A stretch of 44,701 nucleotides of DNA from an uncultured Verrucomicrobiota bacterium (lineage in GTDB: Bacteria; Verrucomicrobiota; Verrucomicrobiia; Opitutales; Opitutaceae). Position 1 is the stretch's first letter. Each line of letters opens with the position of its first letter. The notes below the pieces were generated by a model. The model was given only the letters and a program-made list of their open reading frames with translations. It ran no database searches and had not been told where the DNA came from. Made by a program: the position numbers and the translations under genes. The stretch is from assembly GCA_903904685.1 (NCBI GenBank), contig CAIVDS010000024.1, positions 1 to 44,701 of the forward strand, in the 5' to 3' direction. Below, piece after piece: positions 1-44,701 of this stretch.

Positions 1-1
1 A

Positions 2-4688: not shown

Positions 4689-4696
4689 GGTGCGGA

Positions 4697-5122: not shown

Positions 5123-5164
5123 GTTATGAGAGGGTTGAGTTTAAACTGTGCAAGGGTGGGCAGC

Positions 5165-5956
5165 TCAGGCTTGTTGTTCGGCTTTCGGGGCCGGATTCCA
5201 AGTCGGGGCCGCCGCGTAGGACTCGCCACCGGCAAACTCCACGTCGGTCAACTGGCTGTAGGGGAATTTGCGGAAGAGATCAGCCACCGCGACCGAGAGA
5301 TCGTGAATCCGGTGGGAAATATGATTGCGCAGAAGGTAATAGAAAATGAATGCCGGGATGGCGACGATCAAACCGCCTGCGGTCGCATTAAGCACGTGGC
5401 CGATGGCAGCCGAGAGTTTCGAGGGATCGGCCGCACCGGCCTGACCCATGACGGAAAACGCCGAGATCATGCCCAGCACGGTGCCGGTCAGGCCCACCAT
5501 CGGCGCGATGACGCCTATGACCGAAAGGTAGGCGATCTTGTTCTGGAATTTCGAGTTTTCCCGGAGAATGGCGTTGGACATGGCATCCTCGGCGGCTTGC
5601 AGGCCGCCTGGTGCGTATTTGATTCCAGCATGGACGATGTTCGTCACCGAGACGGGGTTTTCGACGCAATAGTTGAGCGCCCCCTGATAGTCGCCCTTAC
5701 GGAAAAAATCACGGAGGGCTTCCACCTTTTCCGTCGGGAGCAACAACTTCGTTGAGCTTCTCATGAACACGTCGAGGACGAACCAGACAATGAACATGCT
5801 GCACAAGAGGAGGAACCAGATGGCCGGCATGTTAAGATCGGCCAGCAGGGATTTTTTAACAACGACAGGGGCGGCGGCATCGGCGGCCCAGGTGATCGAG
5901 GGCAAAACAAACAAGGCTGCAGTGAACAACTGGCGGAGGGAGGGGATGGTCTTCAT
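5165..5956 (-). CDS. exbB: MotA/TolQ/ExbB-family proton channel
   Basis: A 263-residue inner-membrane protein, the pore partner of the two ExbD proteins. The N-terminus looks like a signal sequence (FTAALFVLPSITWAADA), common in ExbB proteins. TM1 is at about 45-65. A cytoplasmic loop follows, then TM2 (LSVIGVIAPMVGLTGTVLGMISAF, about 146-170) and TM3 (VLNATAGGLIVAIPAFIFYYLL, about 190-212), which carry the Thr residues lining the proton path in the family. A Pro/Ala/Gln-rich tail ends the protein. It is preceded by the 266-residue TPR-like gene at 20 bases and followed by exbD. Confidence 0.92.
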   Translation of the reverse strand: MKTIPSLRQLFTAALFVLPSITWAADAAAPVVVKKSLLADLNMPAIWFLLLCSMFIVWFVLDVFMRSSTKLLLPTEKVEALRDFFRKGDYQGALNYCVENPVSVTNIVHAGIKYAPGGLQAAEDAMSNAILRENSKFQNKIAYLSVIGVIAPMVGLTGTVLGMISAFSVMGQAGAADPSKLSAAIGHVLNATAGGLIVAIPAFIFYYLLRNHISHRIHDLSVAVADLFRKFPYSQLTDVEFAGGESYAAAPTWNPAPKAEQQA

Positions 5957-5976
5957 ATCAAAAATGGAGCAAGGGG

Positions 5977-6777
5977 TTAAAAGTTGGATTCTGTCTTGGC
6001 GAGAGCCGCTTCGGACGATGAGGGATAGGTCACGATAAGGTCGAGATAGGCGCGATCCGAACGGGAAGTGTCGCCATAGCCGCGGTAAGCCCTCGCGCTA
6101 CCCAGCAAGGCTGAAGGAAGGACGTCGTCGCACAAGCCGTAAAAGGCGGGAACCTGGAGATAAAACCCGAGGGCTTTTTCAAACTCCTTCCGCTGGTAGG
6201 CAATGTCTCCACGCAGCTTCACCGCACGGGCGGAGATTTCGGACGACACCGCATTGCGCGAGATTTCATCGAGCATGGCATCGGCAATATCAGGCTTTTC
6301 GAGTCGCAACTGGCCTTCCGCCAAGAGCAGTTGGGCCGCGCTCACATCTTCACGGTCGGTCGAAGTAGAGTTGATTTCCTTCGCGGCGCTTTCGGCCTCG
6401 CCGACTTTTTTTTGTGCAAACAGGGCGCGAGCGCGGATGACAGCGGCATCGCTCCACCAAGAACCGGGCAGCTTCGCAAAGAGGCTGAATTGGTTGTAAA
6501 CCGGCGTTACCTTTTGCTCCGCCTCTGAGGCTTTCCCTGCGGCCAGAAGATCGGCGGCCGCGGCAAGCTCGGCCGGTTCCGGCCAATCGAGACGCACGAC
6601 TTGGGATAATGGATAGGAAACTTCTGCGCCGCCGCCAACAACAACGCGGACCAGCTTGCCGTCTTTGACCTCCACGTCCGTCTGGTTAAGCGCCTTGCCA
6701 TCCTTAAGAATATATCGCTGGGCGCACAGCGGACCGACGGACACCGCCATCAACAGACAGAGGAAAAACTTTTTCAT
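5977..6777 (-). CDS. Exported TPR-like protein
   Basis: A 266-residue periplasmic protein. A signal peptide (MKKFFLCLLMAVSVGPLCA, cleavage before QRY) is followed by a small beta-rich segment (residues 20-65) and a helical region of degenerate tetratricopeptide-like repeats up to the C-terminus ('YGDTSRSDRAYLDLIVTYPSSSEA' is a typical TPR helix pair of the YbgF/CpoB type). The start ATG overlaps the stop of the upstream 976-residue TPR gene by four bases (6774-6777), pointing to coupled translation. In Tol systems such TPR proteins work beside the Tol/Exb motor; that role here is inferred from the operon. Confidence 0.8.
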   Translation of the reverse strand: MKKFFLCLLMAVSVGPLCAQRYILKDGKALNQTDVEVKDGKLVRVVVGGGAEVSYPLSQVVRLDWPEPAELAAAADLLAAGKASEAEQKVTPVYNQFSLFAKLPGSWWSDAAVIRARALFAQKKVGEAESAAKEINSTSTDREDVSAAQLLLAEGQLRLEKPDIADAMLDEISRNAVSSEISARAVKLRGDIAYQRKEFEKALGFYLQVPAFYGLCDDVLPSALLGSARAYRGYGDTSRSDRAYLDLIVTYPSSSEAALAKTESNF

Positions 6778-9704: not shown

Positions 9705-9899
9705 CCCCTTCCGTCAATGCATTCTGTGCAAATCGCCAAAATCTATTACTCCGTAGCGTGGTTGGATGAATGACATTTCAGACGAATATCAAGGACTGAG
9801 TCTCGGATTGGGACGTGCTGACCCGGAAGCCGTCCCGCGAGTGGTTGCTTGTGACGCAGTGAACGTTGCCCAGCCGTTGTTTCCCCGTGGGTGAACGCC

Positions 9900-9912
9900 C
9901 CATTGCCAATGG
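9900..9912. promoter_or_regulatory. Palindrome upstream of clpB
   Basis: CCATTGCCAATGG is a perfect 6-1-6 inverted repeat 25 bases before the clpB ATG, in the 233-base divergent gap between the TPR operon and clpB. The overlapping CCCCATTG resembles the -10 of heat-shock sigma factors, but no good CTTGAA-type -35 lies at the right distance. I see no CIRCE element. It could be an operator; nothing else in the gap stands out. Confidence 0.3.
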
Positions 9913-9937
9913 TCCAGCGCATGCATATGCTTAAACC

Positions 9938-12520
<2,583 letters not shown>

Positions 12521-12596
12521 GCAGACGATCCTATTGGTGGCATCACCTTTGGCTACGGTCTCGACGAATGACGAACTTCGCGCTTCGCTGACGCGC

Positions 12597-13496
12597 ATGG
12601 CCGAGCCTATCTGTTTTTTCAACCGTTACACGCAGACCTTGGAGACCGAGCGGATCTACGGTGAGAAGTGGCTGCGCTGGTCCTACGAAACTCCTTTGGG
12701 GCGGCTTGCGGTGGCGGCCTTGCTGAAGCGCGCCTGGTTCTCTCATTGGTATGGCTGGCGCATGAATAGGCCGATCAGCGCGCGAAAGGTGCTCCCGTTC
12801 ATCATCGATTACGGACTCGATACGGAGGAGTTCGCCCGCGACCCGCTCGGGTTTTCATCCTTCAACCAGTTTTTCTATCGTGCGCTCAAGAAGGAGGCGC
12901 GACCGATCGCACCGGGTGACGACGTGGCGGTATTCGCGGCTGACGGACGGCATCTGGCCTTCTCCGATGTGGATGCGGCTGACGGTTTCTACGTGAAAGG
13001 GATGAAGTTTACGCTGGCTGCGCTTTTGGGTGATGAGTCGTTGGCACAGACTTTTGCCGGCGGCGGGATGGTGATCTCGCGGCTGTGTCCGGTCGATTAT
13101 CACCGGTTTCATTTTCCCGTCGGCGGCACGCCGTCCGATCCGAGGTTGATCAATGGCTGCCTGTTTTCGGTGAACCCCATCGCATTGCGGCGCAATGCGG
13201 GGTATCTCGTGCAGAACAAACGGGCGGTGACGCTCATCGCTTCTTCGCGTTTTGGCCGCGTGGCCATGCTGGAGGTCGGGGCGACGTGCGTGGGCAGCAT
13301 CAAGAATCTGTTTCCGGCGGGCCGGTCGGTAGAGAAAGGGGCGGAGAAAGGATTTTTCACCTTTGGCGGCTCGTGTGTCATCACGATTTTCGAGAAAGGC
13401 CGGATTCGTTTTTCGGAGGATGTGGTCACGCAGAGTTCGAGGCACGTTGAAACCTACGCCCGCATGGGCGATGTCTTGGGCGTGGCGATTTCATGA
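12597..13496 (+). CDS. psd: Phosphatidylserine decarboxylase proenzyme
   Basis: A 299-residue membrane-associated, pyruvoyl-dependent enzyme that converts phosphatidylserine to phosphatidylethanolamine. The self-processing triad is visible: Asp116 (AADGRH), His169 (CPVDYHRFHFP) and the cleavage site Gly258-Ser259 in 'FGGSCVI', whose serine becomes the pyruvoyl group. The motif is GGSC rather than the LGST of the E. coli enzyme, a variant class. I start at ATG 12597 because 'MAEPICFFNRYT' opens the conserved region; an in-frame TTG at 12534 would add 21 residues of no clear character. No strong Shine-Dalgarno is present at either. It lies 76 bases after clpB and could be read through from it. 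Confidence 0.92.
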   Translation: MAEPICFFNRYTQTLETERIYGEKWLRWSYETPLGRLAVAALLKRAWFSHWYGWRMNRPISARKVLPFIIDYGLDTEEFARDPLGFSSFNQFFYRALKKEARPIAPGDDVAVFAADGRHLAFSDVDAADGFYVKGMKFTLAALLGDESLAQTFAGGGMVISRLCPVDYHRFHFPVGGTPSDPRLINGCLFSVNPIALRRNAGYLVQNKRAVTLIASSRFGRVAMLEVGATCVGSIKNLFPAGRSVEKGAEKGFFTFGGSCVITIFEKGRIRFSEDVVTQSSRHVETYARMGDVLGVAIS

Positions 13497-13572
13497 CGAA
13501 TCCTCGCAGGTTCACCATGCGCCTTCGGTCTTGCCAGAGGCTGCCGCGAATCCGCAGTCTTCGGTCATCGCC

Positions 13573-13656
13573 GCCCGGGTGGTGGAATGGCAGACACGAA
13601 GGTCTTAGAAGCCTTTGCTTAATAGCGTGCAGGTTCGAGTCCTGTCCCGGGCACCA
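13573..13656 (+). tRNA. tRNA-Leu (anticodon UAG)
   Basis: An 84-base tRNA including encoded CCA. The acceptor arms GCCCGGG (13573-13579) and CCCGGGC (13646-13652) pair fully, with discriminator A and CCA at 13654-13656. The anticodon stem AAGGT/GCCTT encloses the loop CTTAGAA, giving anticodon TAG. A class II variable arm (TGCTTAATAGCGTGC region) and the T-loop TTCGAGT are present. This reads CUN leucine codons. Confidence 0.95.
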
Positions 13657-30811: not shown

Positions 30812-30870
30812 CGTATCAAGTTGTCACCGGTGTTTGCGTCCTTGCGGAACGGGCGCCGGTGAGTTCGCTG
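30812..30870. repeat. Inverted repeat in the gcvP/nth divergent gap
   Basis: CACCGG and CCGGTG pair across about 25 bases (roughly 30825-30861), enclosing on the minus strand a possible small stem with GCAA tetraloop (TCC-GCAA-GGA). It could fold in either leader RNA. It does not match a riboswitch I know, including the glycine class. Confidence 0.3.
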
Positions 30871-30879
30871 AACGTGTTC

Positions 30880-31527
30880 ATGACTTACTCAGAGCGCGCC
30901 ATACTCATTGATCGCCGTCTGGCGGAGCTTTATCCCGAAACGCCCATTCCACTCGATCACAAGGACGCCTACACGCTGCTTATCGCCGTGCTGCTTTCCG
31001 CGCAGTGCACCGACAAGCGCGTCAATCTCCAGACGCCGGGGCTCTTTGCCAAGGCCGACAATCCTCGCGATATGGTGAAACTCTCCGTCGCCGAGATCGA
31101 CGCCAACGTGCGGCCTTGCGGACTCGCGCCGCGCAAGGCACGGGCGATCCACCGGCTTTCCGAGTTGTTGATCGAAAACCACGGCGGCGAAGTGCCGCGC
31201 ACGTTTGCCGAGTTGGAAGCGTTGCCTGGTGTTGGGCACAAGACCGCGTCGGTCGTGATGGCGCAGGCGTTTGGCGTGCCGACATTCCCCGTGGACACGC
31301 ACATCCACCGGCTCGCCCAGCGCTGGAAACTCACCAACGGACGCAGTGTGGAGCAGACGGAGCGCGACCTGAAAAAATTCTTCCCGAGCGAGCATTGGAA
31401 CGCATTGCACCTGCGGATCATTTTCTACGGACGGGAGCATTGCACGGCGTGCGGCTGCGACGGCACGGTGTGCGGGATCTGCCGCGAACTCTTTCCGAAG
31501 CGCAGGCAGGCGGTGCGGGTTAAGTAG
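30880..31527 (+). CDS. nth: Endonuclease III (DNA glycosylase/AP lyase)
   Basis: A 215-residue base-excision repair enzyme removing oxidised pyrimidines. The helix-hairpin-helix 'LEALPGVGHKTASVV' holds catalytic Lys121, and 'FPVDTHIHR' holds Asp139, at the family positions. The C-terminal Fe-S motif is unusual: Cys191-x6-Cys198-x2-Cys201 fits, but the fourth position (207) is Lys; Cys188 and Cys193 are extra and may supply the ligand. ATG 30880 is preferred over GTG 30859, as homology begins 'YSERAILIDRRL'. Divergent from gcvP. Confidence 0.95.
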   Translation: MTYSERAILIDRRLAELYPETPIPLDHKDAYTLLIAVLLSAQCTDKRVNLQTPGLFAKADNPRDMVKLSVAEIDANVRPCGLAPRKARAIHRLSELLIENHGGEVPRTFAELEALPGVGHKTASVVMAQAFGVPTFPVDTHIHRLAQRWKLTNGRSVEQTERDLKKFFPSEHWNALHLRIIFYGREHCTACGCDGTVCGICRELFPKRRQAVRVK

Positions 31528-31620
31528 TCGATCGATGTTTGCCGGTTTAACCGCAGGCGAAAAGGGCTGGAAAACAGTGTTGATTCGCGTAGGGGAGGTC
31601 TTCAGCTTGCCCGTCCTTTG

Positions 31621-31697
31621 GGACGCTTAGCTCAGTTGGTTAGAGCACCTGCTTCACACGCAGGGGGTCTGCGGTTCGAGTCCGCAAGCGTCCACCA
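31621..31697 (+). tRNA. tRNA-Val (anticodon CAC)
   Basis: A 77-base tRNA with encoded CCA. The acceptor GGACGCT pairs with AGCGTCC, discriminator A94 of the line is followed by CCA at 31695-31697. The anticodon stem CCTGC/GCAGG encloses TTCACAC, anticodon CAC; the D-loop AGTTGGTTA and T-loop TTCGAGT are standard. Its 3' end is repeated at 33706-33720. Confidence 0.96.
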
Positions 31698-31699
31698 TT
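31685..31699 (+). repeat. Left direct repeat (attachment-like) in tRNA-Val 3' end
   Basis: CAAGCGTCCACCATT covers the last 13 bases of the tRNA and two bases beyond. An identical 15-base copy occurs at 33706-33720. This is the pattern left by integration into a tRNA gene. Confidence 0.65.
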
Positions 31700-31920
31700 T
31701 TTATTATCAACATGTTGAATTTTAATATTTTGGAATAGGAATCGAGGTAAGAGCGAACTTGCATATCGAAACAGCTCAAGCGCTCTCGACCAGCATTACA
31801 AAAGACGGGTGACCGAGAACGACACGACACGGCGGGAAAGAAATCAAATAAGGGATTCCAATCAAAAAAGTTTCGACTGATCAGACATCCGAACATTCTG
31901 TAACGCACCCCGTGCATAAC

Positions 31921-33573
31921 ATGAACTTTTGCAATTCACCGACTTTCCTTCTGGCTACACTGTTTGCCGCATGGTCTGTCTTGGACTCGGCACATGCTGA
32001 AACCATCGTTCATGAAAACGACAGGATAGTTTTTTGCGGCGACAGTATTACCGGTCAGGGTGGCAGAGGTGGATCAACCGGCTGGGTTGGGCTGATTAAG
32101 GAGGGACTGGCAATTTCGCGCCCGACAGGTGGCCAAACGTTAATCGCTTTGGGCGGAAGCGGCGCTACGGTTGGCGCTTGGCAGATTTTTGAAAAAAAGA
32201 GCCGGGATAATCCGGCGATCCTAGATGTGCCTGGAGTCGATGTGAAGGCGACGCTGGATGGCGGCGCTGACATTATCGTCATCATGCTGGGCATGAATGA
32301 CCTCACCTCGCCGGGCGTCAAGGATGCTCCGGCCGATTTCGATGCCTGGGCGGTGCGTTATCATGATCTCATCGAAGCGCTAAAAGCGCGGGTACATCCG
32401 CGAGTAGTCGCCTTGGCGACGATCACGCCTTACACGGAAGATAATCATTCGCCCAAAAACCGGGTCGAAGGGGAGCTCAACAACCGGCTGATGGAACTGG
32501 CCAAGAAAGAGCATGCCGTTATCCTGCCGACCCACGAGGCGATGATGGAGTTGCTCGAAGCGGGACGCGGGTTTCGACCCGATTTTCATGTCACTGCCGA
32601 CTTCGTCCATCCCAATAATGTCGGACATCTGGCGATTGCAGTAGGGATGCTTAGGGGCATGGGAGAATCCGTGGCTGCCGAGCGACTGCTCGATAAATAC
32701 AGCAAGATTTTTCGCCCTGCCACTGCGGACCTGCCGGCGCTTTCGTATGAGCTAAGCGTGCAAGAGGCGTCACCGGATGAATCCTGCCGCCGCTTCACGA
32801 TTCACTACCAATGGACGCCTCCCGTTTCATCGGCTGCAACCCCTGTTACTGTCATCGCCAGTGTCCCCGAGGGATGGAAGGCCGCCCCTTCACGTCTTAC
32901 GGGATCCACAGGTGATTTCCAAGTGTCAGGCCCGCTCGACCGTTTGGTAAACAACGTGACACTCATCGCTACAGCGGGTGATCTGAAGCAACAGGCCGAG
33001 ATACACATTCCAGCCGGCTGGCGCGTCGCGGTGGGCAAGGGCTTGGGCTTGGGATGGACTAAAGGCGACTATGATCCGAACAAGGACCATCTCCCTCTTG
33101 ATCAGGAGCTTTCCCAGGATGAAGCACTTGTAAAGCCTGTCATTTTTCCGGCTAGTGGCACACGTCCGTGGCAACACTATATTGCCAGCCTCAACTTCAC
33201 CGGTCATGAGAAACCGGGCAGTGTCGATATGGCGGCTATCACCTTTTATACATACAACGATCTCGCTTATGGAGTTCGATGGATTTACAGCGACAAGGAG
33301 CGTCCGGTGGATGTCATTCTTGGATCACAGGCCATGGCTGGGAAAATGTTTGCCGAATCCATTCGCTTGAATGACGATGTCCTTTATGAAGGCAGAATTG
33401 GTGCGGAACCGGGTCACAAAAAAACGGTGGATGGCAAACTTCATCACGGCTGGAATCGGCTCCTTTTTAAGAGCACTTTTATCCAATGGCAGTGGCAATT
33501 TTCGATAGACCTCGCCGGTAAACCCGGCGACGACCTGGCGGATATCCGATATGCGACGGTTAATCCACCCTAA
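31921..33573 (+). CDS. Exported SGNH/GDSL-family hydrolase with extra C-terminal domain
   Basis: A 550-residue secreted esterase-like protein. Signal peptide to about 26 (FLLATLFAAWSV...AHA-E), then an SGNH domain: block I 'FCGDSITGQG' (nucleophile Ser42), the Gly of block II, block III 'GMNDLT', and block V with Asp227 and His230 in 'DFVHPNNVGH'. The N-terminal 240 residues fit the fold; the other 300 form an unassigned, beta-rich region with Trp/Tyr-rich strands, perhaps carbohydrate binding. Related enzymes deacetylate plant or microbial polysaccharides; the substrate here is unknown. ATG 31921 follows a GTG at 31912; neither has a Shine-Dalgarno. Lower GC than its neighbours suggests transfer. 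Confidence 0.82.
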   Translation: MNFCNSPTFLLATLFAAWSVLDSAHAETIVHENDRIVFCGDSITGQGGRGGSTGWVGLIKEGLAISRPTGGQTLIALGGSGATVGAWQIFEKKSRDNPAILDVPGVDVKATLDGGADIIVIMLGMNDLTSPGVKDAPADFDAWAVRYHDLIEALKARVHPRVVALATITPYTEDNHSPKNRVEGELNNRLMELAKKEHAVILPTHEAMMELLEAGRGFRPDFHVTADFVHPNNVGHLAIAVGMLRGMGESVAAERLLDKYSKIFRPATADLPALSYELSVQEASPDESCRRFTIHYQWTPPVSSAATPVTVIASVPEGWKAAPSRLTGSTGDFQVSGPLDRLVNNVTLIATAGDLKQQAEIHIPAGWRVAVGKGLGLGWTKGDYDPNKDHLPLDQELSQDEALVKPVIFPASGTRPWQHYIASLNFTGHEKPGSVDMAAITFYTYNDLAYGVRWIYSDKERPVDVILGSQAMAGKMFAESIRLNDDVLYEGRIGAEPGHKKTVDGKLHHGWNRLLFKSTFIQWQWQFSIDLAGKPGDDLADIRYATVNPP

Positions 33574-33705
33574 AAAGGACGCTTTGGGTGAAGGTGTAAC
33601 CAAAGAAATCCGATTTCTTCAACTTCCCTGACTCGGCCAGGAAACTTGACGGCACCAGAGCTGATGCAACCGTTGACTCTTTTCCCTCTGGTGCGTGAAA
33701 CTCTT

Positions 33706-33720
33706 CAAGCGTCCACCATT
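33706..33720 (+). repeat. Right direct repeat of tRNA-Val 3' end
   Basis: CAAGCGTCCACCATT, identical to 31685-31699 and standing without the rest of a tRNA. The flanks differ (CTCTT before, CCCC after), so identity is limited to these 15 bases. Confidence 0.65.
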
Positions 33721-33771
33721 CCCCTTCGTGAGGTCGGTTAAGACGGCAATTGATTGCTTTTTGTTTACGAT

Positions 33772-33800
33772 TTGTATCAGCTATAAACTATTGATATAAG
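33772..33800 (+). promoter_or_regulatory. Candidate promoter of the giant PATR gene
   Basis: TTGTAT (33772-33777) and TATAAG (33795-33800) are spaced by 17 bases in the AT-rich region, about 155 bases before ATG 33955. The -10 matches five of six consensus bases, the -35 only the first three. A TATAAA at 33782 is an alternative. Confidence 0.35.
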
Positions 33801-33954
33801 CTTTTTTATTAACTTAAATCAGTGGTAGTGATTGCTCGGATTATTTTAATGCATTTTACTTCCAATGTTCACATTTTCGTATCATTAATACTTTATATCC
33901 CCAGTTGTTGTGTTCCGATGGTTCAACCAATATACCCCTCTTGATAATTTCCCC

Positions 33955-36900
33955 ATGAATACCCCCGCCTGCCAGCGTCTGAATGTTTTACTGTCGGGCT
34001 TTGCCGCGATCGCCGCGATTTTCATGGTGAGTCCCGCCGCGCGGGCGGCGACCATCGTATGGAACAACGCCGGCACCGTCTGGGCGACGGGCACCGATTG
34101 GACCGGCGGCTCCGCTCCGACCAGCGATCTCACCTCGGACATTGCGCTATTCAACTCGACGCTTTTCAGCAGTCAGCCGAACTACGGCACCACGAGTGTG
34201 GCCGGCATTCAGGTGGGTGACGGGACGACCCTCACCGGTCCGCTTACTCTGACCGGCACCGCGCTCAGCCTTGGCTCCGGCGGCATCGTGATCGCGGCCA
34301 ACGCCGGCACGGTCAGCCTTAGCAATTCGGTCAAGATCGGCGCGAACCAGAGTTGGGCCAACAACTCCTCCAGCCTGTTCACCGTCGGCGCTACGATCAC
34401 GAATGCGGGCAACGCCGCTCCCTTTACTCTCACGCTGAACGGCTCCGGCTCGGGTGGTACGACGATCACCGGCATCATCAGCAATGGCGGCACCACCGGC
34501 ACCACGGCCGTGACCGTGAACACGACCGGCGGTGGCGTCACCACGCTCTCCGGGAATAACTCGTTTACCGGTGGCATGACACTGACGTCGGGCGTCCTCC
34601 GGGCCACCACCAGCACGGGGGCTCTCGGACTCGGCACGCTTTCTCTGGGCGGCGGCGAACTGCAACTGGCCAATGCCTCGGGGCTGAATTTTGCCCGTGC
34701 CACCACGGTAACCGGCAACACCCAAATCACCTCGGACCTGCTGGCCGGCGGGGCTGGCGTCACCCATACGCTCGGCACGCTTTCGATCGGCACGCAGACG
34801 CTGACGGTTGCCGGCGGCACCAACGTGGCCAGCGGCACCGCCGGTCTGACGTTTGGCGCCACCACCCTTACCGGAAACGCCACCTTCAACGTCACCAATC
34901 CCGCGGCCGGCGGCACGACGACGCTCCTGACGCTGGCCGCCTTGAACGACGGCGGCACGGCCCGCACCATCACCAAGAGCGGCGGCGGCACGCTGACCCT
35001 GGCCACGGCGGCCACCAGTATGGTCAACGGCACCCAGATCAACATCGCCGGCGGCACTTTGAATGCCAACATCGGAACCGCGATCGGGGGCACGAATACC
35101 ACGGTGGACGTGGCCGACGGGGCGGCCTTTGGCGTCGGCATCGCCCAGACCATCGGAGCGCTGACCAATGTCACCACCGTGTCCAACACGGGCAGCGTCA
35201 GCATCGGGGGGGCCTACACGCTGACCATCGGCAGCGTGACCAACAATCTCAACTCCAGCTTCTCCGGCGTCATCAGCGGCGCCACCGGCGCGCTCACCAA
35301 GGCCGGCACCGGCACCCTCACGCTCTCCGGCGCGAACAGCTACGGCGGCCTGACGACCGTGAGCGCGGGCGTGTTGAACATCCGCAACGCCACCGCCCTG
35401 GGCGCCACGGCCGCGGGCACGACGGTGGCTTCCGGCGCCGCCTTGGAGATCCAGGGGAACATCACCGTGGGTGCGGAAGCCCTTACGCTGAATGGCACCG
35501 GCAACAACACCGGTACACTCGCCAGCTACGGCATCGGCGGAGCCCTGCGCAATGTTTCCGGCGCCAACACCTTTGGCGGGGTGATCACGCTGGGCTCCAC
35601 CGGCGTCCGTATCAATTCGGACTCCGGCAGCCTGACGCTGAACAACGGAACGATCACGGGCGCGACCTTCGCCCTTACCGTGGGCGGCGCGGGCGCCACG
35701 ACCATTTCCAGTGTCATCGGCACGACCACCGGCACCTTCACCAAGGACGGCGCCGGCACCCTCACTCTGTCCAACGCCAATACCTATTCCGGCGCCACGA
35801 CCCTCAGCGCCGGCACCGTGAATGCCGCGAACACGCAGGCCTTCGGCACGGGCGGGCTCACGCTCGGCAACGTCACCGTCGATCTCGCGACGGACTCCTC
35901 GATCACCGCCTATAACACGACGGCGACAGCGGGGCCGGTCACGACGATCATCTCGGATCGCGCCACCAGCGGGGCGGGCATCACGCATACCTTCGGCACC
36001 TTTGCCCCCGGCGCGCTTCAGTTCAATATCCGGGCCGGCGCCAATGTCACCGGCGGCACCGCCGGGGTGACCTTTGGCGGCACCACCACATTCCAATCGT
36101 CCAGCGGAACGGTTTTCGACACGGGGGCCACTACGAATCTCACCATCGGCACCATCGCCCTTCCCGCTTCCGGCGTAAGCGCGACGTTCAACCTTTTCAA
36201 GCAGGGCGCCGGCACGCTTACCCTCAACGGCGCCACCAACGCCCGCACCGGCGGCATCATGTTTGTGACTGCGGGCAAGCTCGTGCAAGGCAGCGTGGTC
36301 GGCATCGGCGGCGGCGTGCTCGCCCTCGGCGGCGGCTCAACCGTGGATCTGGCGACGGACACCACCTCCACGACCGCCTATGCCACCACCCTCCTCGGCA
36401 ACGCCACGATTTTGACCGACAAGGCGACCGCGACCAGCGCCGGCATCACCCAGACGCTGGGCGCGCTGACCGTCCTCGGACCGAACACGCTGACGATCGG
36501 CAACGGCTCCAACGTGAGCGGCGGCGCGCCCGTCGTGGCCTTTGGCGCATCAACGATCAACGCCGGGACCACGTTCTCGGCGAACACCGGCGCGGCCCTG
36601 ACGCTGAACACCACCCTGACTGAAACCGGCAACGGTACGATGACCTTCTCCGGAGCGGGCAACAGCACGGTCACGGGCGCGATCAACGGCGGCGGCGGCG
36701 TGACGATGAACGGCACCGGCGTCCTGACGCTCACCGCAGCCAACGGCTACACCGGAGCCAACGCCATCGGTTCGGGCAAGGTGACGCTGGGCAACGTCGC
36801 GGGTCTCGGCCCCGTGGGCACGGCGGTGTTGAACATGACGGGCGGCACGCTCGATCTCGCCGCCGTCGGCTCCACGCTTCTGGCCTTGACGGGCAATTCG

Positions 36901-39900
36901 AGCGGCGCGATCAGCAGCACGGGCACGGCCACCCTGACGGTGACCCCGGTGGCCAACACGACCTCCAGCTTCGCGGGCGCGATCGGCGGTGGCGGCGGCA
37001 CCTTGGGCGTGACGGTCAACAGCACCTCGGGCGGCGCCTTGAGCCTGGGCGGCAACAACACCTACACGGGCATCACCACTTTGACGGCGGGCCAGTTGAA
37101 CATCAACGCGTCGGGCACCGGTTCGACGAATTCGGCGATCGGCACGGGGGCGTTCACGCTGACGACGGGCGTCATCGACAACACCGGCGCCGGCGATGTC
37201 AGCCTTGCGACGACCAACGCGATCACGCTGGGCGGCAACTTTGGCTTCGGGGGCAGTGGGAACCTGAACCTCGGGGCGGGAACGCTGTCGGAGGCGGCGA
37301 GCCGCACCCTCGACCTGATGGGGACCGGCGGCAAGAAGCTGACGGTTCAAAACTGGTCGAACACCGCGGCCAACGTGGTCAGCACGTTCCTCACGATGCC
37401 GGGATCGAACTCGACGGTTTCGATCGGCGCGTTCAACACGCAGACGACGGGCACGGCGGGCACGACGGGCGGCGTCGGCGGCAATTCCACCATCGCGGTC
37501 ACGGGGGGCATCGTCCCGACCATCACGGCGAACGCCTTCGTCTATTCGAACGCGGGGACGCTGACGCTTTCGGGGGCGAGCACGTACACGGGAGCGACGA
37601 CGTTGAACGCGGGCACGCTGATCCTGGACGCGACGGGGGGAACGGCGACGCTGGCGGCGACGGCGCCTACGTTCGCGGGCGGCACGTTCATCTACAAGGG
37701 CAACGCCACGGGCACGGGCCAGACGCTGGGCGCCGTGACGCTGAACGCGGGAGCCTCGTCGATCCAGGTTGTCGGCGGCGCCGCCGGGACCACGCTGGCC
37801 CTGGGCGCGACGCCTGACGCGACGAACAACGCGATGCTGAACGTAAACCTGAGCGGCACCGCGCCGGCGGTGACCACGACGACGGGCAATACCGCCAGCA
37901 TCTTCGGAACGCGCGGAGCCGTGACGGTCACGACGGGCGGGACGACGGAGTTCGCCACGGTGAGCGGCAGCAGCCTGATACAATACACCGGGCAGACCCC
38001 CTTCACGGGCACGACGACGGGCACCACTACGAATTACTCCGTGGCGGACTCGCAGACGCTGACCACGGCGGCCTCGACGCCGAACTCGATCAAAATCACG
38101 ACGACCGCGAACAACGGGTCGCTGGACCTTGGCGCCAACACGATGAAGATCACCAGCGGCGGCATTTTGTTCACCGGAGCCAACACGGGCTACCAGATCA
38201 AAGGCACCAACGCGGCGGCCCTGAGCAGCGGCACGGCGACAGCTTCGGATCTGATCATCCACAACTTCGGCACCGGAGGCCTGACTATCAGTGCGGTGAT
38301 CGCCAACGGCACGGGCACCTCGGTCGTATCGCTGGACGGCACGGGCGTGACGACGCTCTCGGGAGTCAACACCTACACGGGCGTGACGCTGGCCGGCGGC
38401 GGAGCGGTGGTGAACATCGGAGCCGATTCCGGTCTGGGCGCGGTCGCCACGGGCGCGGCTTTGACCCTGAACAACGCGACGCTGCAGGCGGGCGCGAGCT
38501 TCGCCCTGGACAACAGCAGCGGCAGCGGCACCAACGCCCGCGCGATCACGCTCGGGGCCGGCGGCGGCACGTTCGACACGCAGGGGAACACGCTGACGGT
38601 TTCCGGGGTGATCAGCGGAGCCGGCAGCCTGACGAAGACCGGCACCGGCACCCTGAATCTCGTCGGCGTGAACACCTACACGGGCGGCTTCACGAACATC
38701 CAGAACGGCTCCCTGGTGCTCGGCACCAAGTCCGGCGTGAGCGTGGGAGCCCTGACGGCCTCGACCATGGTGACCCTGGGCAGCGGCGCCAACTCCGGCG
38801 TCCTCCAGCTCGGCGACAGCCTCAACGCGGCGCCGCAGACGGTCGCGGGCCTGTTCACCTTGGGCTCCGGCACGGGCAACGCGATCGTGGGCGGCAACGC
38901 CTCCAACTCCACGCTGACGTTTACGGGCAGCCTGCTGACGCCCTCGACCTTCGGCGGGAGCATCGGCGGCGCGGGCCTCAACAACAACAAACTGGCCCTG
39001 GCGATCACCTCGGGCGCATTGACTCTCAGCGGGAACAGCACCTACACCGGCGGGACGACCGTCAGCGGCGGCGCCGTGCTGAACATCAACAGCGCGGCCG
39101 CGCTCGGCACCGGCACCCTGGCCGTCACCAATGCCGCGGCGGTGATCGACAACACCAGCGGGAGCGCGAAGACCCTCTCGAACAACGTCACCACGTCCAC
39201 CGGCTTCGTCTTCGCGGGCTCGAACAACCTGAGCTTCGGCTCCGGTACGCTGGGGGTGTCTTTGGGCAGCGTGATCGCGGTGGATGGGAACAGCACGCTC
39301 ACGTTCGGCTCGTTGGTGAACACCAAGACCGCGGGTGGCACGCTGTCCTTGGCCGTCAACGGCAGCACGGGCACGCTCAGCCTGGGCGGCTTTGACATGC
39401 AGGGTATCGCGGGCGGCGGAGCGATCACCAACACCCTGAACGGTTCGGGCAACATCACCCTCACCGGGGCCGTCACGAACGGCTCGCAGGCTGGGGCCAA
39501 CGCCAACGCCCTGAGCTACACCGGCACCGGGGTGCTGACGCTCTCGGGAGCCAATCCCACCTACACCGGCCTGACGACGGTGGGCAACGCGGGCGGCACG
39601 CTGAAGTTCGGCACCGGGGTGACCAGTCTGCCGGGCGCGCTGACGCTGACGGCCGGCGTGGTGGACGTCGGCGGCCAGAACGTGACGGTGGGCGGCACCT
39701 TCACCGGCACGGCCGGCCTTGTGACCAGTTCGGCGGCGGGCGGCGTCTTCACCGCCAACATCGTCGCGTCGTCCGCCAATAACTGGGCCGGCGCCCTGTC
39801 CCCCAGCATTACCTTGGCGAGCGGCGGAGCGGGATCCAATGTCTCCGGAAACTTTTACAACACCGGAAACACCACATTGACCAACGCCAGCGTGAGCACC

Positions 39901-42900
39901 CTGAATTTCAACGGGACTTCACTCGCGCCGGTCGGCAACATCACGTTGAACGCCAACGGCACCGGCGCCTTTAATGTCACCGCCGGACTCGTCAATCCCA
40001 CCGGCACGATCACGAACAGCGGCACCGGCGGCGGCATCACGACCATCAGCGCCGTGATCGGCGGCAATGTGACCGGCATCGTCCAGAACAGCGCGACCAG
40101 CATGCTGGTCTTGAGCGGCGCCAACAGCCCCTTAACCGGCGGCCTGACCATCAAGGCCGGCACGGCGCAGGCCACGACCAATACGAACGCGCTGGGAAGC
40201 GGCACGGTATTGCTGGGCGACATCTCCGGCTCGGCCAACGCCAGGCTCCAGATCGGCTCCGCCGGAAACAGCGCGTTGACGATCGCCAACAATATCACGG
40301 TGCAGGCGGGGAGCACCGGCACCGCCACGATCACCAATCTTTCCGACACCACCTCGCAGAACGCGGCCGCCACGGCCAGCGGGACCATCACCCTCAACAA
40401 GACCGTCACCCTCAACGCCGGCAATGCCATCGTGTCGGGTCAGTTCAACGTCGGAACATTGAGTATCGCCAGCCTCACCGGCAGCGGCGGGATCAACACC
40501 ACCACCTCGAGCATCGGCGTGAGCAGTTCCGGCCAGGGCTTCGGCATCGGCGCCGGCTTTGTCATCTTGACCGGCCCCAACACCTATTCGGGCGACACCC
40601 GCGTGCTGTCGGGCAGCCTTATCTTGAACAGCCTCACCGCCACCGCCATGGACGCGTGGACCGGCACCGGTTCCAATCCCGTTTACATCGGCGACACCAG
40701 CGGCACCCAGTCGGCCCGGCTCATGATGCAGATGACCGCCGTCGCCGCGGGCCAGGTCTTCAACAAGAACATCGAGGTGCTGGCCGGCAATTCGGGCATT
40801 TCCGGCTTCGGCAGCAATAACAACAACGCCTCCGCCGCCATCTCCGACTATCACGGCACCATCACCCTGGACAAGTCCGCCTACATCCTCGGCTACAGCT
40901 CGGCCAGCGGCAACATCGTCAAGGGGTCCTCCGCCATCGGCGCGGTGTCCCTCACCAGCAACGGCACCTTTGTCTACAGCTCCGCCGCGCTCAGCGGCGC
41001 CAAGACCTACGACGGCGGCACGACCGTCGGCATGGGCATTCTCGCCGGTTCCAGCACCGCCGGGTCCACCACCCAGAATTTCGGCACCGGCAACATCGTC
41101 GTTGAAACCGGCACGCTGCGCCTTGGCGCCTTCGACAATGTCGCCACGGGCAAGACCATTCATGTCAACACCGGGGGCATGGTCACCATCAACAACAACG
41201 CCATCACCCAGGCGAACATGGTGTCGCTCATCGACGCCACGTCCTCGGGAGCCATCGGCATAGGAAGCACCTATACCTACACCGGCAACCTCAACCTTGC
41301 GACCATCGGCAACGGCCTGATGTATTTTGGCGTTGAGAATGGCGCCAACGCCGTCTACTCGGGCACCACTCTTGGCGCCAACAGCGACAACAATTACCGT
41401 CTCGGCTATGGCGGCACAGCCAGCATTGGTCTGACGATCAGCAACGGCGTACTCGTTGACGTCGGCGGCCCCTCCCAGTTGATCGTCGGCGGCGCGGGGG
41501 GCCTGCTCGGCTTTGCCCAACCGAGAACGGGCATCCACACCGAGGGATCCGTCACCCTCTCCGGGGCCAACACCTACACCGGCGGCACCATCGTCAACAG
41601 CAACAGTTTTCTCTTAGGCAACGCCCTGGCCAGCGGCAGCCCCTTCGGCAGCGCCACGGGAACCGTGAGCATACGCGACGGCACCTTCAAGCTGCTCACC
41701 GACGCCGTCACCGCCACGGCCACCCGTTCCACCACGGTCGGCGCGGTCGATTACTCCGGCTCGGCCAACCTTCTCATCGCGGGTGTCACCGCAGGTAACA
41801 ACACCCTCAACGTCGGCCAGATCGCGGCCCGCACCAACAACGGCACGCTCATGATCGGCACGACGGGCACCGGAGCCGTGCTCGGCACCGCCAGCGGCAC
41901 CGCCTTCATCAAGACCACCGGCACCGCTCCCGCGACCTTCGCGACGGTGGCGACCAACGGCGGCGGCGGCACCGCCGCGATGCTCGCCCCCTACCTCTAC
42001 GATACCCTCGGCAATTACCTGACGTATGACGCCACCTACGGCTTCACGCCCATCGCGACGACCGTGGTCACGCCCGCCGGCGCGCCCGCCACCGCCTATG
42101 TGAAAACCGTCACGAGCGGCAATACCACGCTGACCACGGGCGGAACCATCCAAATTGCGGCCCTCAACCTGGGGGGATCTCTGCTCAGCACCGCCGGCGC
42201 CACCGATGTCATCCTCCAGATCACCACCGGCGGGCTCAATGACTATGGATACTCCGCAAATGCGGGTTCCAACAGCGGCCTGAACGTCGGCGCGGCGGGA
42301 GCGACCAACCGCATTCTCCTGGATTTCCAGGGCCAGGAAGCGGTCATCGGCGCGCTCAACAATCAGAACGGCGGCATGATCATCAACAATACGATCAGCA
42401 ACACGGGCGGCAACGGTCTCACCAAATGGGGAAACGGCAACCTCAACCTGGGTGACGCCACCAATTCCTTCACCGGACTGATCACCATCAACCAAGGGTT
42501 TCTCCAGGTGGCCGTCGACGGCGCGCTGGGTGCCGCGACCAACGGCCTCTACATCAACGGCGGCACCCTTTACACCACCGCATCGGGCACGTTTACGCTC
42601 AATGCCAGCCGCACCGTCACCATCGGCCAGTTCGGCGCCTCGCTGGGCACCGGCACCCAGAACGGCGGGTCGAGCAACCAGAGCAACCTGACCGTCGCCG
42701 GCCTGATCACCGGCACGGGCGCCTTCCTGGCCCTTGGCAACGGCAATGCCCTGGCATCCAGCTACCTCCCCAATACCTTCACCTTTGGCAACGCCTCGAA
42801 TGATTTCACCGCCCCCATCTACCTGGGGAACAACATGGTGAGCCGCGTGACGCTCGCCTTTAGCGACAACGGCCAGTTGGGCAACGCGGCCAACGCCATC

Positions 42901-44701
42901 AACATCTCGGGCGGCAACGCCAGCCTGCAATACACCGGGGCATCCTCCACCTCGATGAATCGCAGCCTGGTCTTCGCCGACCTCGGCGGCGCGATCGACA
43001 TCGTGACCGGCGGCGTTGTCCTCACGGAAAACGGCGTTGTCTCCGGGAGCGGCGTGTTCGAAAAGGCGGGTCTCGGCACCCTGGCCCTCACGGCCTCCGC
43101 CGCCACCTTCAGCGGCACGATCAACATCGATGCCGGCGTGCTGAACGTCTCGCACGCCGACGCGCTCGGCGCCACCACGGCGGTCGTCTCCGGCAACTCC
43201 GGGGTGAGCGGCGGGGCGGCCTACGTGCAAAGCGGCGCGGCGCTGGAAGTGCAGAACAACATCGCGCTGGGCAACGCGGGCGGGAAGACCCTTTACCTGA
43301 ACGGCAGCGGCATCGGCGGGAACGGCGCCCTGCGCAACGTGAGCGGCAACAACTCCGATACCGGCGCGGTCATCCTGCAGACGAACGCGACGATCGGAAC
43401 GGACGCGAACTCGCTGACGCTCTCGGGCCCGGTGAGCGGCGCGGGATCCGCCGCCCTGACGAAGGTCGGCGCGGGCACCCTGATCCTCTCCGGGACCAAC
43501 ACCTTTACCGGCGGCACGACGATCAGCGCGGGCGCGCTGCAGCTGGGCGCCGGAGGCGCGACGGGCAGCCTGTCGACGACGGGGGCGGTCGTGAACAACG
43601 GGAGCCTGATCATCAACCGGAGCAACGCGGTGGCGCAGGGGACGGACTTCAGCTCGGCGGCCATCACGGGTACGGGTTCCCTGACCCTGAGCGGGGCGGG
43701 CACCGTGACGCTCACCGCGGCGAACGGCTACATCGGAGGGACGACGATCAGCGCGGGCGCGTTGCAGCTGGGCGCCGGAGGCGCGACGGGCAGCCTGTCG
43801 ACGACGGGTGCGGTCGTGGACAACGGGAGCCTGATCATCAACCGGAGCAACGCGGTGGCGCAGGGTACGGATTTCAACGGCGGTGCGCTCAACGGGACGG
43901 GATCGTTCACGCAGGCCGGTTCGGGCACGACGACCCTGAACGCTGCGAACGGCTACAACGGTGTGACGGCGGTGAACGCGGGGACGCTCTCGTTCAACAG
44001 CGTGGCTGCGGGGGCGGCGGCGCAGGCGCTGGGCACGAACAGCGCGGTGACCCTCGGGGTGGCGGGCACCTCGTCGGGGATCCTGCAATACACCGGCGGG
44101 GCCGGTACGCTGGACAAGAACGTGACGGCGCTGGGCAACGGGCTGAACACGATCTGGAACAGCGGCCCGGGGCTGCTGACGCTGTCGGGCTCGCTGGTGA
44201 AGAACGGGACGATCCTGGCGCTGAACGGCAGCCTGAACGTGACCGGGGTGATCAGCGGGAGCGCGGCGAACTCGGATTTGGACATCACCGGTGGAACGAC
44301 GACCCTCTCCACGCTTGCGACCTACAACGGCCCGACGGCGGTGTATGGCGGCGGCACGCTGGTGAACAATGTGAGCGGCGGGGCGTTGCCGACCGGCACG
44401 ACGCTGACGTTGGGCGAGGCCGCGACCAACACGGCCGGCACCTTCGATCTGAACGGCAACGCGCAGACGGTCTCCGGTTTGAACACCGCGGGCACGGCGG
44501 GAGCCTCGAATATCGTCACGAACTCCGGAGGCGGAAGCGCCACCCTGACGGTGAACAACGGCGGGGCCTTCGCCGGCACCATCCAGAATGGAACGGGCGG
44601 CACGGCGCTGGCGCTTGGCGGAGGCACGCTGTTTCTCTCCGGAGCGAACACCTACACCGGCGGCACAACGGTGAGCGGCGGAACGCTGCTGGTGAACAAC
44701 A
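33955..44701 (+). CDS. Giant autotransporter-associated beta-strand (PATR) repeat protein, 3' end outside window
   Basis: One reading frame open from ATG 33955 to the window edge, more than 3,580 codons without a stop. Residues 1-31 are a signal peptide (hydrophobic VLLSGFAAIAAIFMV, cleavage after ARA). The rest is Gly/Thr/Ser/Ala/Asn-rich parallel-beta-helix sequence with many PATR motifs of the form 'GTLTLSGANTYTGGTT..AG.L', for example near 35305, 35750, 38340, 38640, 39010, 39535, 43480 and 44635. Such proteins are exported to the cell surface, often ending in an autotransporter barrel or a PEP-CTERM sorting signal; the end is not visible. No enzymatic domain is seen. No Shine-Dalgarno precedes the start. 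Function (adhesion, surface layer, cell contact) is inference. Confidence 0.92.
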   Translation, partial: MNTPACQRLNVLLSGFAAIAAIFMVSPAARAATIVWNNAGTVWATGTDWTGGSAPTSDLTSDIALFNSTLFSSQPNYGTTSVAGIQVGDGTTLTGPLTLTGTALSLGSGGIVIAANAGTVSLSNSVKIGANQSWANNSSSLFTVGATITNAGNAAPFTLTLNGSGSGGTTITGIISNGGTTGTTAVTVNTTGGGVTTLSGNNSFTGGMTLTSGVLRATTSTGALGLGTLSLGGGELQLANASGLNFARATTVTGNTQITSDLLAGGAGVTHTLGTLSIGTQTLTVAGGTNVASGTAGLTFGATTLTGNATFNVTNPAAGGTTTLLTLAALNDGGTARTITKSGGGTLTLATAATSMVNGTQINIAGGTLNANIGTAIGGTNTTVDVADGAAFGVGIAQTIGALTNVTTVSNTGSVSIGGAYTLTIGSVTNNLNSSFSGVISGATGALTKAGTGTLTLSGANSYGGLTTVSAGVLNIRNATALGATAAGTTVASGAALEIQGNITVGAEALTLNGTGNNTGTLASYGIGGALRNVSGANTFGGVITLGSTGVRINSDSGSLTLNNGTITGATFALTVGGAGATTISSVIGTTTGTFTKDGAGTLTLSNANTYSGATTLSAGTVNAANTQAFGTGGLTLGNVTVDLATDSSITAYNTTATAGPVTTIISDRATSGAGITHTFGTFAPGALQFNIRAGANVTGGTAGVTFGGTTTFQSSSGTVFDTGATTNLTIGTIALPASGVSATFNLFKQGAGTLTLNGATNARTGGIMFVTAGKLVQGSVVGIGGGVLALGGGSTVDLATDTTSTTAYATTLLGNATILTDKATATSAGITQTLGALTVLGPNTLTIGNGSNVSGGAPVVAFGASTINAGTTFSANTGAALTLNTTLTETGNGTMTFSGAGNSTVTGAINGGGGVTMNGTGVLTLTAANGYTGANAIGSGKVTLGNVAGLGPVGTAVLNMTGGTLDLAAVGSTLLALTGNSSGAISSTGTATLTVTPVANTTSSFAGAIGGGGGTLGVTVNSTSGGALSLGGNNTYTGITTLTAGQLNINASGTGSTNSAIGTGAFTLTTGVIDNTGAGDVSLATTNAITLGGNFGFGGSGNLNLGAGTLSEAASRTLDLMGTGGKKLTVQNWSNTAANVVSTFLTMPGSNSTVSIGAFNTQTTGTAGTTGGVGGNSTIAVTGGIVPTITANAFVYSNAGTLTLSGASTYTGATTLNAGTLILDATGGTATLAATAPTFAGGTFIYKGNATGTGQTLGAVTLNAGASSIQVVGGAAGTTLALGATPDATNNAMLNVNLSGTAPAVTTTTGNTASIFGTRGAVTVTTGGTTEFATVSGSSLIQYTGQTPFTGTTTGTTTNYSVADSQTLTTAASTPNSIKITTTANNGSLDLGANTMKITSGGILFTGANTGYQIKGTNAAALSSGTATASDLIIHNFGTGGLTISAVIANGTGTSVVSLDGTGVTTLSGVNTYTGVTLAGGGAVVNIGADSGLGAVATGAALTLNNATLQAGASFALDNSSGSGTNARAITLGAGGGTFDTQGNTLTVSGVISGAGSLTKTGTGTLNLVGVNTYTGGFTNIQNGSLVLGTKSGVSVGALTASTMVTLGSGANSGVLQLGDSLNAAPQTVAGLFTLGSGTGNAIVGGNASNSTLTFTGSLLTPSTFGGSIGGAGLNNNKLALAITSGALTLSGNSTYTGGTTVSGGAVLNINSAAALGTGTLAVTNAAAVIDNTSGSAKTLSNNVTTSTGFVFAGSNNLSFGSGTLGVSLGSVIAVDGNSTLTFGSLVNTKTAGGTLSLAVNGSTGTLSLGGFDMQGIAGGGAITNTLNGSGNITLTGAVTNGSQAGANANALSYTGTGVLTLSGANPTYTGLTTVGNAGGTLKFGTGVTSLPGALTLTAGVVDVGGQNVTVGGTFTGTAGLVTSSAAGGVFTANIVASSANNWAGALSPSITLASGGAGSNVSGNFYNTGNTTLTNASVSTLNFNGTSLAPVGNITLNANGTGAFNVTAGLVNPTGTITNSGTGGGITTISAVIGGNVTGIVQNSATSMLVLSGANSPLTGGLTIKAGTAQATTNTNALGSGTVLLGDISGSANARLQIGSAGNSALTIANNITVQAGSTGTATITNLSDTTSQNAAATASGTITLNKTVTLNAGNAIVSGQFNVGTLSIASLTGSGGINTTTSSIGVSSSGQGFGIGAGFVILTGPNTYSGDTRVLSGSLILNSLTATAMDAWTGTGSNPVYIGDTSGTQSARLMMQMTAVAAGQVFNKNIEVLAGNSGISGFGSNNNNASAAISDYHGTITLDKSAYILGYSSASGNIVKGSSAIGAVSLTSNGTFVYSSAALSGAKTYDGGTTVGMGILAGSSTAGSTTQNFGTGNIVVETGTLRLGAFDNVATGKTIHVNTGGMVTINNNAITQANMVSLIDATSSGAIGIGSTYTYTGNLNLATIGNGLMYFGVENGANAVYSGTTLGANSDNNYRLGYGGTASIGLTISNGVLVDVGGPSQLIVGGAGGLLGFAQPRTGIHTEGSVTLSGANTYTGGTIVNSNSFLLGNALASGSPFGSATGTVSIRDGTFKLLTDAVTATATRSTTVGAVDYSGSANLLIAGVTAGNNTLNVGQIAARTNNGTLMIGTTGTGAVLGTASGTAFIKTTGTAPATFATVATNGGGGTAAMLAPYLYDTLGNYLTYDATYGFTPIATTVVTPAGAPATAYVKTVTSGNTTLTTGGTIQIAALNLGGSLLSTAGATDVILQITTGGLNDYGYSANAGSNSGLNVGAAGATNRILLDFQGQEAVIGALNNQNGGMIINNTISNTGGNGLTKWGNGNLNLGDATNSFTGLITINQGFLQVAVDGALGAATNGLYINGGTLYTTASGTFTLNASRTVTIGQFGASLGTGTQNGGSSNQSNLTVAGLITGTGAFLALGNGNALASSYLPNTFTFGNASNDFTAPIYLGNNMVSRVTLAFSDNGQLGNAANAINISGGNASLQYTGASSTSMNRSLVFADLGGAIDIVTGGVVLTENGVVSGSGVFEKAGLGTLALTASAATFSGTINIDAGVLNVSHADALGATTAVVSGNSGVSGGAAYVQSGAALEVQNNIALGNAGGKTLYLNGSGIGGNGALRNVSGNNSDTGAVILQTNATIGTDANSLTLSGPVSGAGSAALTKVGAGTLILSGTNTFTGGTTISAGALQLGAGGATGSLSTTGAVVNNGSLIINRSNAVAQGTDFSSAAITGTGSLTLSGAGTVTLTAANGYIGGTTISAGALQLGAGGATGSLSTTGAVVDNGSLIINRSNAVAQGTDFNGGALNGTGSFTQAGSGTTTLNAANGYNGVTAVNAGTLSFNSVAAGAAAQALGTNSAVTLGVAGTSSGILQYTGGAGTLDKNVTALGNGLNTIWNSGPGLLTLSGSLVKNGTILALNGSLNVTGVISGSAANSDLDITGGTTTLSTLATYNGPTAVYGGGTLVNNVSGGALPTGTTLTLGEAATNTAGTFDLNGNAQTVSGLNTAGTAGASNIVTNSGGGSATLTVNNGGAFAGTIQNGTGGTALALGGGTLFLSGANTYTGGTTVSGGTLLVNN
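43516..43875 (+). repeat. Recent internal duplication in the giant gene
   Basis: Bases 43516-43650 and 43741-43875 are the same 135-base segment offset by 225 bases (75 codons), differing at only five positions, four of them silent. This is far closer than other repeats in the gene and indicates recent duplication or gene conversion of one beta-helix module. Confidence 0.9.

Follow-up and report, generated by a model that had tools for sequence, protein, structure and literature searches.

A probable tRNA-Val-associated islet of 2.0 kb, with one SGNH hydrolase gene and no integrase, in a genome of the Opitutaceae

The window (the whole stretch of DNA that was analysed, 44,701 nt) is an entire contig, C24, without N, of a 3.2 Mb genome in 114 contigs; the fragmented genome may be a metagenome bin. 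An intact tRNA-Val(CAC) gene, the target gene, lies on the forward strand at 31621-31697 (ARAGORN; Rfam RF00005, 69 bits), and all of its 77 nt are identical (100%) in three same-genus genomes (G004, G005 and G006). Its conserved left neighbour is nth (30859-31527, forward), which was assigned by Pfam to the endonuclease III family (HhH-GPD). The last 13 nt of the tRNA and the TT that follows form the 15-mer CAAGCGTCCACCATT, the left, attL-like core copy (31685-31699, forward). An exact second, attR-like copy is found at 33706-33720 (forward), with a start-to-start distance of 2021 bp. Between the two copies are an AT-rich leader (31700-31911, forward, 42% GC) and only one sizeable ORF, which encodes an SGNH/GDSL hydrolase (31912-33573, forward). 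The right copy is followed by an AT-rich spacer (33721-33954, forward, 34.6% GC) and by a giant gene of the PATR surface or autotransporter type (33955-44701, forward; 3582 aa or more, with no stop before the contig ends), which starts 236 bp past the position in the right copy that corresponds to the tRNA end. The clpB gene (at 9938) with its upstream region occupies 9705-12520 (forward). An exact 15-base repeat of the tRNA 3' end around a one-gene segment, as described in the sequence-only reading, is thus present. In the Rfam search of 31000-34500 the tRNA was matched alone and no other known family was found; promoter and terminator scans gave no signal better than shuffled sequences, and a terminator-like hairpin is absent after either 15-nt copy in the window.

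Exact copies of CAAGCGTCCACCATT occur at two sites only in the 3.2 Mb genome, both in this locus. Allowing up to 2 mismatches adds one further site, C58:83287, within a Rep-like ORF of an element at tRNA-Pro(GGG). In order-1 Markov shuffles of 31700-33960 (n = 3000), a 15-mer of the tRNA 3'-end region appeared in 0, a 14-mer in 1 and a 12-mer in 16. The DNA downstream of 43 ARAGORN tRNA calls was also scanned (up to 10 kb each where the contig allows, 281 kb in total); these calls include one doubtful Gly call on C20, and 42 tRNAs are matched by Rfam. The tRNA 3' end recurred over at least 12 nt downstream of 2/43 calls, tRNA-Pro(GGG) with 33 nt and tRNA-Val(CAC) with 15 nt, and the longest recurrence among the other 41 was 11 nt. 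The absence of a repeat carries little weight at 11 of the 43 calls, because less than 1.3 kb of contig remains after the tRNA there. These counts bear out the earlier statement that a chance recurrence is very unlikely.

The hydrolase has 553 aa from a GTG start, or 550 aa from the ATG at 31921. It is an SGNH/GDSL hydrolase by both its domain match (PF13472, 3.5e-17, 63.9 bits against a cut-off of 32.9) and its catalytic blocks, which in the 550-aa form are GDSI at residue 40, GMND at 124 and HPN at 230. The protein is apparently secreted, judging by a signal peptide recognised by eye. The nearest solved structures in the PDB are mostly acetyl xylan esterases, at a weak match (E about 2e-4), and NCBIfam gives no family name. 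We infer that the cargo is an exported carbohydrate esterase, its substrate being a prediction.

The base composition of the gene is unusual for the window. Its GC content is 0.544, compared with 0.561-0.670 for the 11 other window genes, two of which come near it in plain GC (0.561 and 0.567). The GC3 value of 0.572 is the lowest of the 12 genes (0.657-0.892 in the other 11), and the two paralogues in the same genome have 0.874 and 0.781 (the 57% and 43% identical copies, respectively). The GC and codon-usage comparison proposed earlier sets the hydrolase gene apart clearly in GC3 and only slightly in plain GC. The lower GC claimed for the segment as a whole was upheld for the gene, but not as a boundary, because the low GC continues past 33720 into the spacer; the right repeat is not a composition boundary. 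The PATR gene has a native composition (GC3 0.892).

A phylogenetic tree was reconstructed from 13 proteins (12 different; row L260 was left out). The hydrolase clustered with its 57% identical paralogue on C35 (support 100/99), and this pair adjoins proteins from Akkermansiaceae and Verrucomicrobiaceae genomes. The nearest homologues outside the genome are also from Verrucomicrobiota (53-54% identical). The gene could stem from within the lineage, since its closest homologue is the own-genome paralogue. No full-length homologue was found in 55 relatives, including 12 same-genus genomes; the matches are partial and confined to the SGNH domain. Their best E value is 2.5e-11, the top match per genome (17 genomes) is 25-33% identical, and one second-ranked match reaches 44% over 59 residues. 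The family is patchy: three candidates were scored in each of 383 further genomes of the class, and 5/383 reached E<=1e-40, with identities no higher than 44%. In its unusual composition and scattered distribution, the cargo is like that of a tRNA-targeted genomic island.

ARAGORN found no tRNA beside the homologues at 9 outside loci (L121-L129, of 15), nor around the two own-genome paralogues, and no occurrence of the hydrolase in viral contigs was confirmed. Short frames of tandem peptide repeats (NYSQH-like and TLKSLGF-like) lie beside both paralogues near contig ends (L110, 12606-13001; L111, 10670-10951). Both tRNA-Thr(CGT) and tRNA-Gln(TTG) have the start or end of another SGNH hydrolase gene less than 1 kb downstream (L200, 596-1780; L216, 1246-2550), the tRNA-Gln(TTG) one on the opposite strand. 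SGNH domain hits within 1.5 kb downstream of a tRNA number 3/34 compared with 0.66 expected (P about 0.03), which is a weak, post hoc signal.

The absence of an integrase was confirmed. The tyrosine integrase domain PF00589 was not detected on the contig, and elsewhere in the genome it gave 7 hits, 6 of them over the cut-off; the resolvase domain PF00239 of serine recombinases gave no hit anywhere in the genome. The suggested search for an integrase with the same attachment core was unsuccessful: none was found, and the sole near-match to the 15-mer (up to 2 mismatches) is the one in the Rep-like ORF. The genome does contain an integrase-bearing element at tRNA-Pro(GGG), C58:80424-84116, with 33-nt copies at 80424-80456 and 84084-84116, a length of 3.6 kb and a GC content of 0.547. 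It encodes a DUF2726 protein, a tyrosine integrase in which PF00589 and a SAM-like domain were matched, and a Rep_ORF2/G2P-like protein. Because this element combines the 33-nt repeat with an integrase, integration by a tyrosine recombinase at a tRNA 3' end has very probably happened in this genome.

Integrase-like frames on the same strand also follow closely behind up to six tRNAs (loci L226, L221, L219, L225, L198 and L206): Leu(GAG), Leu(CAA), Glu(TTC) and Ser(TGA), with a weaker case at His(GTG) and a decayed one at Gly(TCC). The Leu(GAG) piece (401 aa, 86 bp behind the tRNA) has an integrase N-terminal SAM-like domain below the Pfam cut-off, and its C-terminal half resembles a tyrosine recombinase by eye only. 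The Leu(CAA) piece matches a domain of this kind just over the cut-off. The Glu(TTC) piece is 41% identical to the Leu(GAG) one, and the DNA behind Ser(TGA) matches the Glu piece at 49%. The His(GTG) piece resembles the Leu(GAG) piece over 46 residues only (E 3e-4), and the decayed Gly(TCC) piece resembles the His one over 36 residues. PF00589 was found in 0/6 of these pieces, of which 5/6 have a contig end less than 1.3 kb from the tRNA, and Pfam matched nothing in the His and Glu pieces themselves. Contig ends behind tRNAs were considered as a sign of variability in the population and rejected: they lie within 1.3 kb downstream of 11/42 tRNAs, compared with 1.9 expected, yet also upstream of 7/42, so the excess is not specific to the downstream side.

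The tRNA-Val site was compared in 12 same-genus genomes (G001-G012). Upstream of tRNA-Val, nth is found at a distance of no more than 1.3 kb in 7/12 (G001, G004, G005, G006, G008, G009 and G010), and clpB follows the tRNA in 6 of those 7; in G006 the contig ends 590 bp past the tRNA and clpB was not seen. The distance from tRNA-Val to clpB is about 170 bp in G005 and G009, with no insert, and 2.0-3.7 kb in G001, G004, G008 and G010, with other genes and no tRNA repeat of at least 12 nt. In G002, G007, G011 and G012 the tRNA is in other surroundings, apart from nth and clpB, and the stretches examined there contain no 12-nt repeat of its 3' end. The best match in G003 was a different tRNA. A 12-nt recurrence of the tRNA 3' end was found at 0/20 loci of the relatives, some of the stretches being short or ended by contig ends. 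The hydrolase gene conserved at this place without the repeat, the finding that would have refuted the sequence-only reading, was looked for in the 12 genomes and did not appear.

In the proposed comparison with empty sites, plain arrangements of tRNA-Val, hairpin and clpB were found in G005 and G009, but the right flank differs from that of the window. A terminator-like hairpin, recognised by eye, lies directly behind tRNA-Val in seven relatives and is missing in the window. Local alignment against shuffles showed that the post-tRNA sequence of the 7 relatives follows neither repeat copy in the window; the islet-free flank is therefore not reconstructed, since the sequence past the right repeat matches none of them. 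A worn ancestral hairpin behind the right repeat was suspected by eye and rejected, as 66-161/200 shuffles scored as well against the 7 relatives; on the tRNA side, at best 12/200 shuffles were as good (G009). The region upstream of the window clpB aligns to G005 from 9806, which is 38 bp past the G005 tRNA end (score 48, 0/300 shuffles). If the ancestor resembled G005 or G009, tRNA-Val would have been severed from clpB right behind its 3' end. This is not certain: G004 gives the same homology (score 47, 0/300) although its clpB is 2.9 kb from the tRNA, so that the break can be placed directly at the tRNA end only by assuming a G005-like ancestor.

At 1-13656 the window departs from the order tRNA-Val, clpB, psd, tRNA-Leu and TPR gene seen in G004 (comparison with L090, L120 and L091): the TPR gene and clpB stand head to head, and tRNA-Leu(TAG) is followed by other genes. 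Between gcvP and nth, G004 and G005 carry low-GC (0.49), secreted-looking genes (L090 and L091) that differ from each other by eye; the gcvP-nth interval of the window has no ORF as large.

Seven PATR-type genes with an observed start were counted in the genome by PATR or the shared N-terminal part (C20, C24, C34, C59, C67, C74 and C82; a match on C89 was left out). The copies on C20, C34, C67 and C82 begin much as the window gene does; that on C74 is related but begins differently. All five end at contig edges, and together with the window copy 6/7 of the genes are cut. The C82 copy begins 293 bp past tRNA-Met(CAT). On C59, a distinct PATR gene, which encodes a PEP-CTERM motif, begins 268 bp past tRNA-Pro(CGG). 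On C34, two ORFs separate the copy from an integrase gene upstream of it. Thus 2/7 of these genes begin within 300 bp behind a tRNA 3' end as found, and 3/7 when the islet is removed from the window, which suggests that tRNA-Val might already have had a PATR gene behind it before the hydrolase unit arrived. Among 17 loci of PATR copies, a tRNA lies within the short locus in 2/17, L149 (the own-genome C20 copy) and L153 (G003), both on the opposite strand. A chimeric assembly at the islet seems unlikely, because the PATR copies and the sister gene of the hydrolase belong to the same genome.

Taken together, the region is probably an integrase-less islet of 2.0 kb that was targeted to a tRNA, arising by site-specific insertion, with the integrase either lost afterwards or supplied in trans. 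A DNA circle bearing the hydrolase gene together with a duplicate of the tRNA-Val(CAC) 3' end would have inserted at the 3' end of tRNA-Val, presumably through a site-specific recombinase of the tyrosine type. The 15 nt brought in by the circle would then restore the tRNA at 31685-31699, and the original 3' end would be displaced to become the right repeat at 33706-33720. Most likely the unit would be what is left of a small element with its own integrase, similar to the 3.6 kb one at tRNA-Pro(GGG); the integrase and further genes would have disappeared while the two att-like ends stayed. Insertion by a recombinase supplied in trans is less likely. When the islet arrived, tRNA-Val would probably have been parted already from clpB, with the PATR gene about 236 bp downstream, by analogy with the related copy behind tRNA-Met(CAT) on C82. 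The islet was probably stacked onto such an altered site, because the low GC passes the right repeat, no flank of a relative is found there and the PATR gene starts 236 bp on. The predicted islet-free site is the tRNA-Val body followed directly by CCATTCCCCTTCGTGAGG.

The evidence for the islet consists of the unique, non-chance repeat, the tRNA-Pro(GGG) element, the integrase-like genes behind other tRNAs, the GC3 value, the patchy family, the plain sites of G005 and G009 and the alignment of the clpB upstream region to G005. The sequence-only reading of a minimal, tRNA-borne one-gene unit is supported by the same repeat, element and integrase-like genes, by the plain relatives, and by the missing full-length homologues in the 12 same-genus genomes. 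Several observations point the other way. The 15-nt repeat is short next to the 33 nt at tRNA-Pro(GGG), the right flank is unlike that of 7 relatives, no integrase with the same core was found in the genome, the closest homologue of the gene is a paralogue in the same genome, and the low GC extends beyond the unit. Moreover, none of the integrase-like pieces adjacent to tRNAs has PF00589, low-GC secreted-looking genes occur elsewhere in the genus, and tRNA-Val in G002, G007, G011 and G012 stands apart from nth and clpB without a repeat.

Two other explanations are serious rivals. The hydrolase unit and the PATR gene might both be cargo stacked in tandem at tRNA-Val, which we regard as unlikely; the right repeat would then be a shared inner att site, and the far end of the array would lie beyond the contig. 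The starts of PATR-type genes 293 bp behind tRNA-Met (C82) and 268 bp behind tRNA-Pro(CGG) (C59), the copy downstream of an integrase gene (C34) and the loss of clpB from behind tRNA-Val are consistent with such accretion, whereas a third 15-mer is absent from the genome at up to 2 mismatches, except for the one inside a coding gene. It is also opposed by the native composition of the PATR gene and by the lack of tRNA 3'-end repeats downstream at C82 and C59, although the C82 contig ends 466 bp past the tRNA. Alternatively, the 15-mer could be the by-product of a rearrangement in which the tRNA end was copied during illegitimate repair, the hydrolase being an ordinary native gene of low GC. 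The repeat coincides exactly with the tRNA 3' end, where att sites usually lie, the only other repeat among the 43 tRNA calls goes with an integrase, and the codon composition is far from that of the sister copy; all three make a repair origin rather improbable, even though the order around tRNA-Val and tRNA-Leu is unlike that of G004 and G005, the right flank is found in no relative, and a sister paralogue exists in the same genome. Chance recurrence of a 15-mer, for which a crude scaling of the shuffles (14-mer in 1/3000 and 15-mer in 0/3000, per 2.3 kb) to 281 kb gives about 0.01-0.04 cases per genome, is extremely improbable, given that the repeat sits precisely on the end of the tRNA, that none of the 3000 shuffles held one and that the cargo has an unusual composition.

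The tRNA-Val islet would show how far down in size tRNA-borne insertion reaches with both ends kept. The idea of a recombinase supplied in trans can be put to the test here, because an integrase-less islet, an integrase-bearing element and integrase-like genes adjacent to tRNAs share one genome. A wider reading, which we hold to be doubtful, is that tRNA 3' ends serve as a general docking platform for single-gene cassettes of exported or surface proteins (PATR, SGNH), served in trans by tyrosine recombinases addressed to tRNAs. These recombinases would be the ones directly behind other tRNAs, and the cassettes would be loaded and exchanged. If surface-protein genes generally load at tRNAs, the tRNA flanks would be where to search for the variable outer-surface repertoire of these bacteria.

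The islet can be compared with several known systems. Cis-mobilizable elements (CIMEs), by definition, have lost the integration and transfer genes and kept attL and attR, and stacked tandems at one site are described (PMC5704250). Like a CIME, the islet has att-like repeats at both ends beside an intact target gene and lacks integrase and transfer genes. The 15-nt direct repeat provides candidate att sites, and the unit holds one hydrolase ORF, with no PF00589 on the contig and no PF00239 in the genome. Unlike a CIME, it is only 2.0 kb with one gene; no remnants of ICE or IME genes, such as descent from a conjugative or mobilizable element might leave, were seen within the unit. As in a tRNA-targeted island, the tRNA is intact, identical to that of G004-G006, and the insertion itself is deduced. 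Tycheposons, as summarised in PMC10872708, have a tRNA border, a tyrosine recombinase inside and a size of 4-200 kb, whereas the islet is 2.0 kb with no recombinase in the unit.

In the additive flexible genomic islands of Methylopumilus (fGI-2), the repeats are the last 20 nt of tRNA-Lys, and the islands range from 330 bp to 42 kb with 1 to 63 CDS (PMC10872708). Both cases show a tRNA 3'-end repeat bordering a cargo island. In fGI-2, however, every genome of two species has the repeats, with differing copy numbers (PMC10872708); here there is one 15-nt repeat in one genome of another phylum, the Verrucomicrobiota. Of the ssrA islands of Dehalococcoides, 16/31 have an integration module; the RNA gene, or a 20-bp direct repeat of it, forms the boundaries, and the islands are stacked in tandem (PMC3146451). 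The boundary by RNA gene or repeat and the missing integration module in some islands are shared with the islet. The ssrA islands use a serine recombinase and tmRNA (PMC3146451), whereas here the targets are tRNAs, the unit is single and no resolvase-type recombinase was found in the genome. The titles and abstract openings among the matches listed for Verrucomicrobiota islands or single-gene islets do not report this site. A further comparison lies within the genome: the islet and the tRNA-Pro(GGG) element are both of kilobase scale, low in GC and bounded by direct repeats of a tRNA 3' end, and the latter differs in its 33-nt repeat, tyrosine integrase, and Rep_ORF2/G2P-like and DUF2726 genes. 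The kind of element is thus already known, and the tRNA-Val islet would be a further case of an ordinary type of event.
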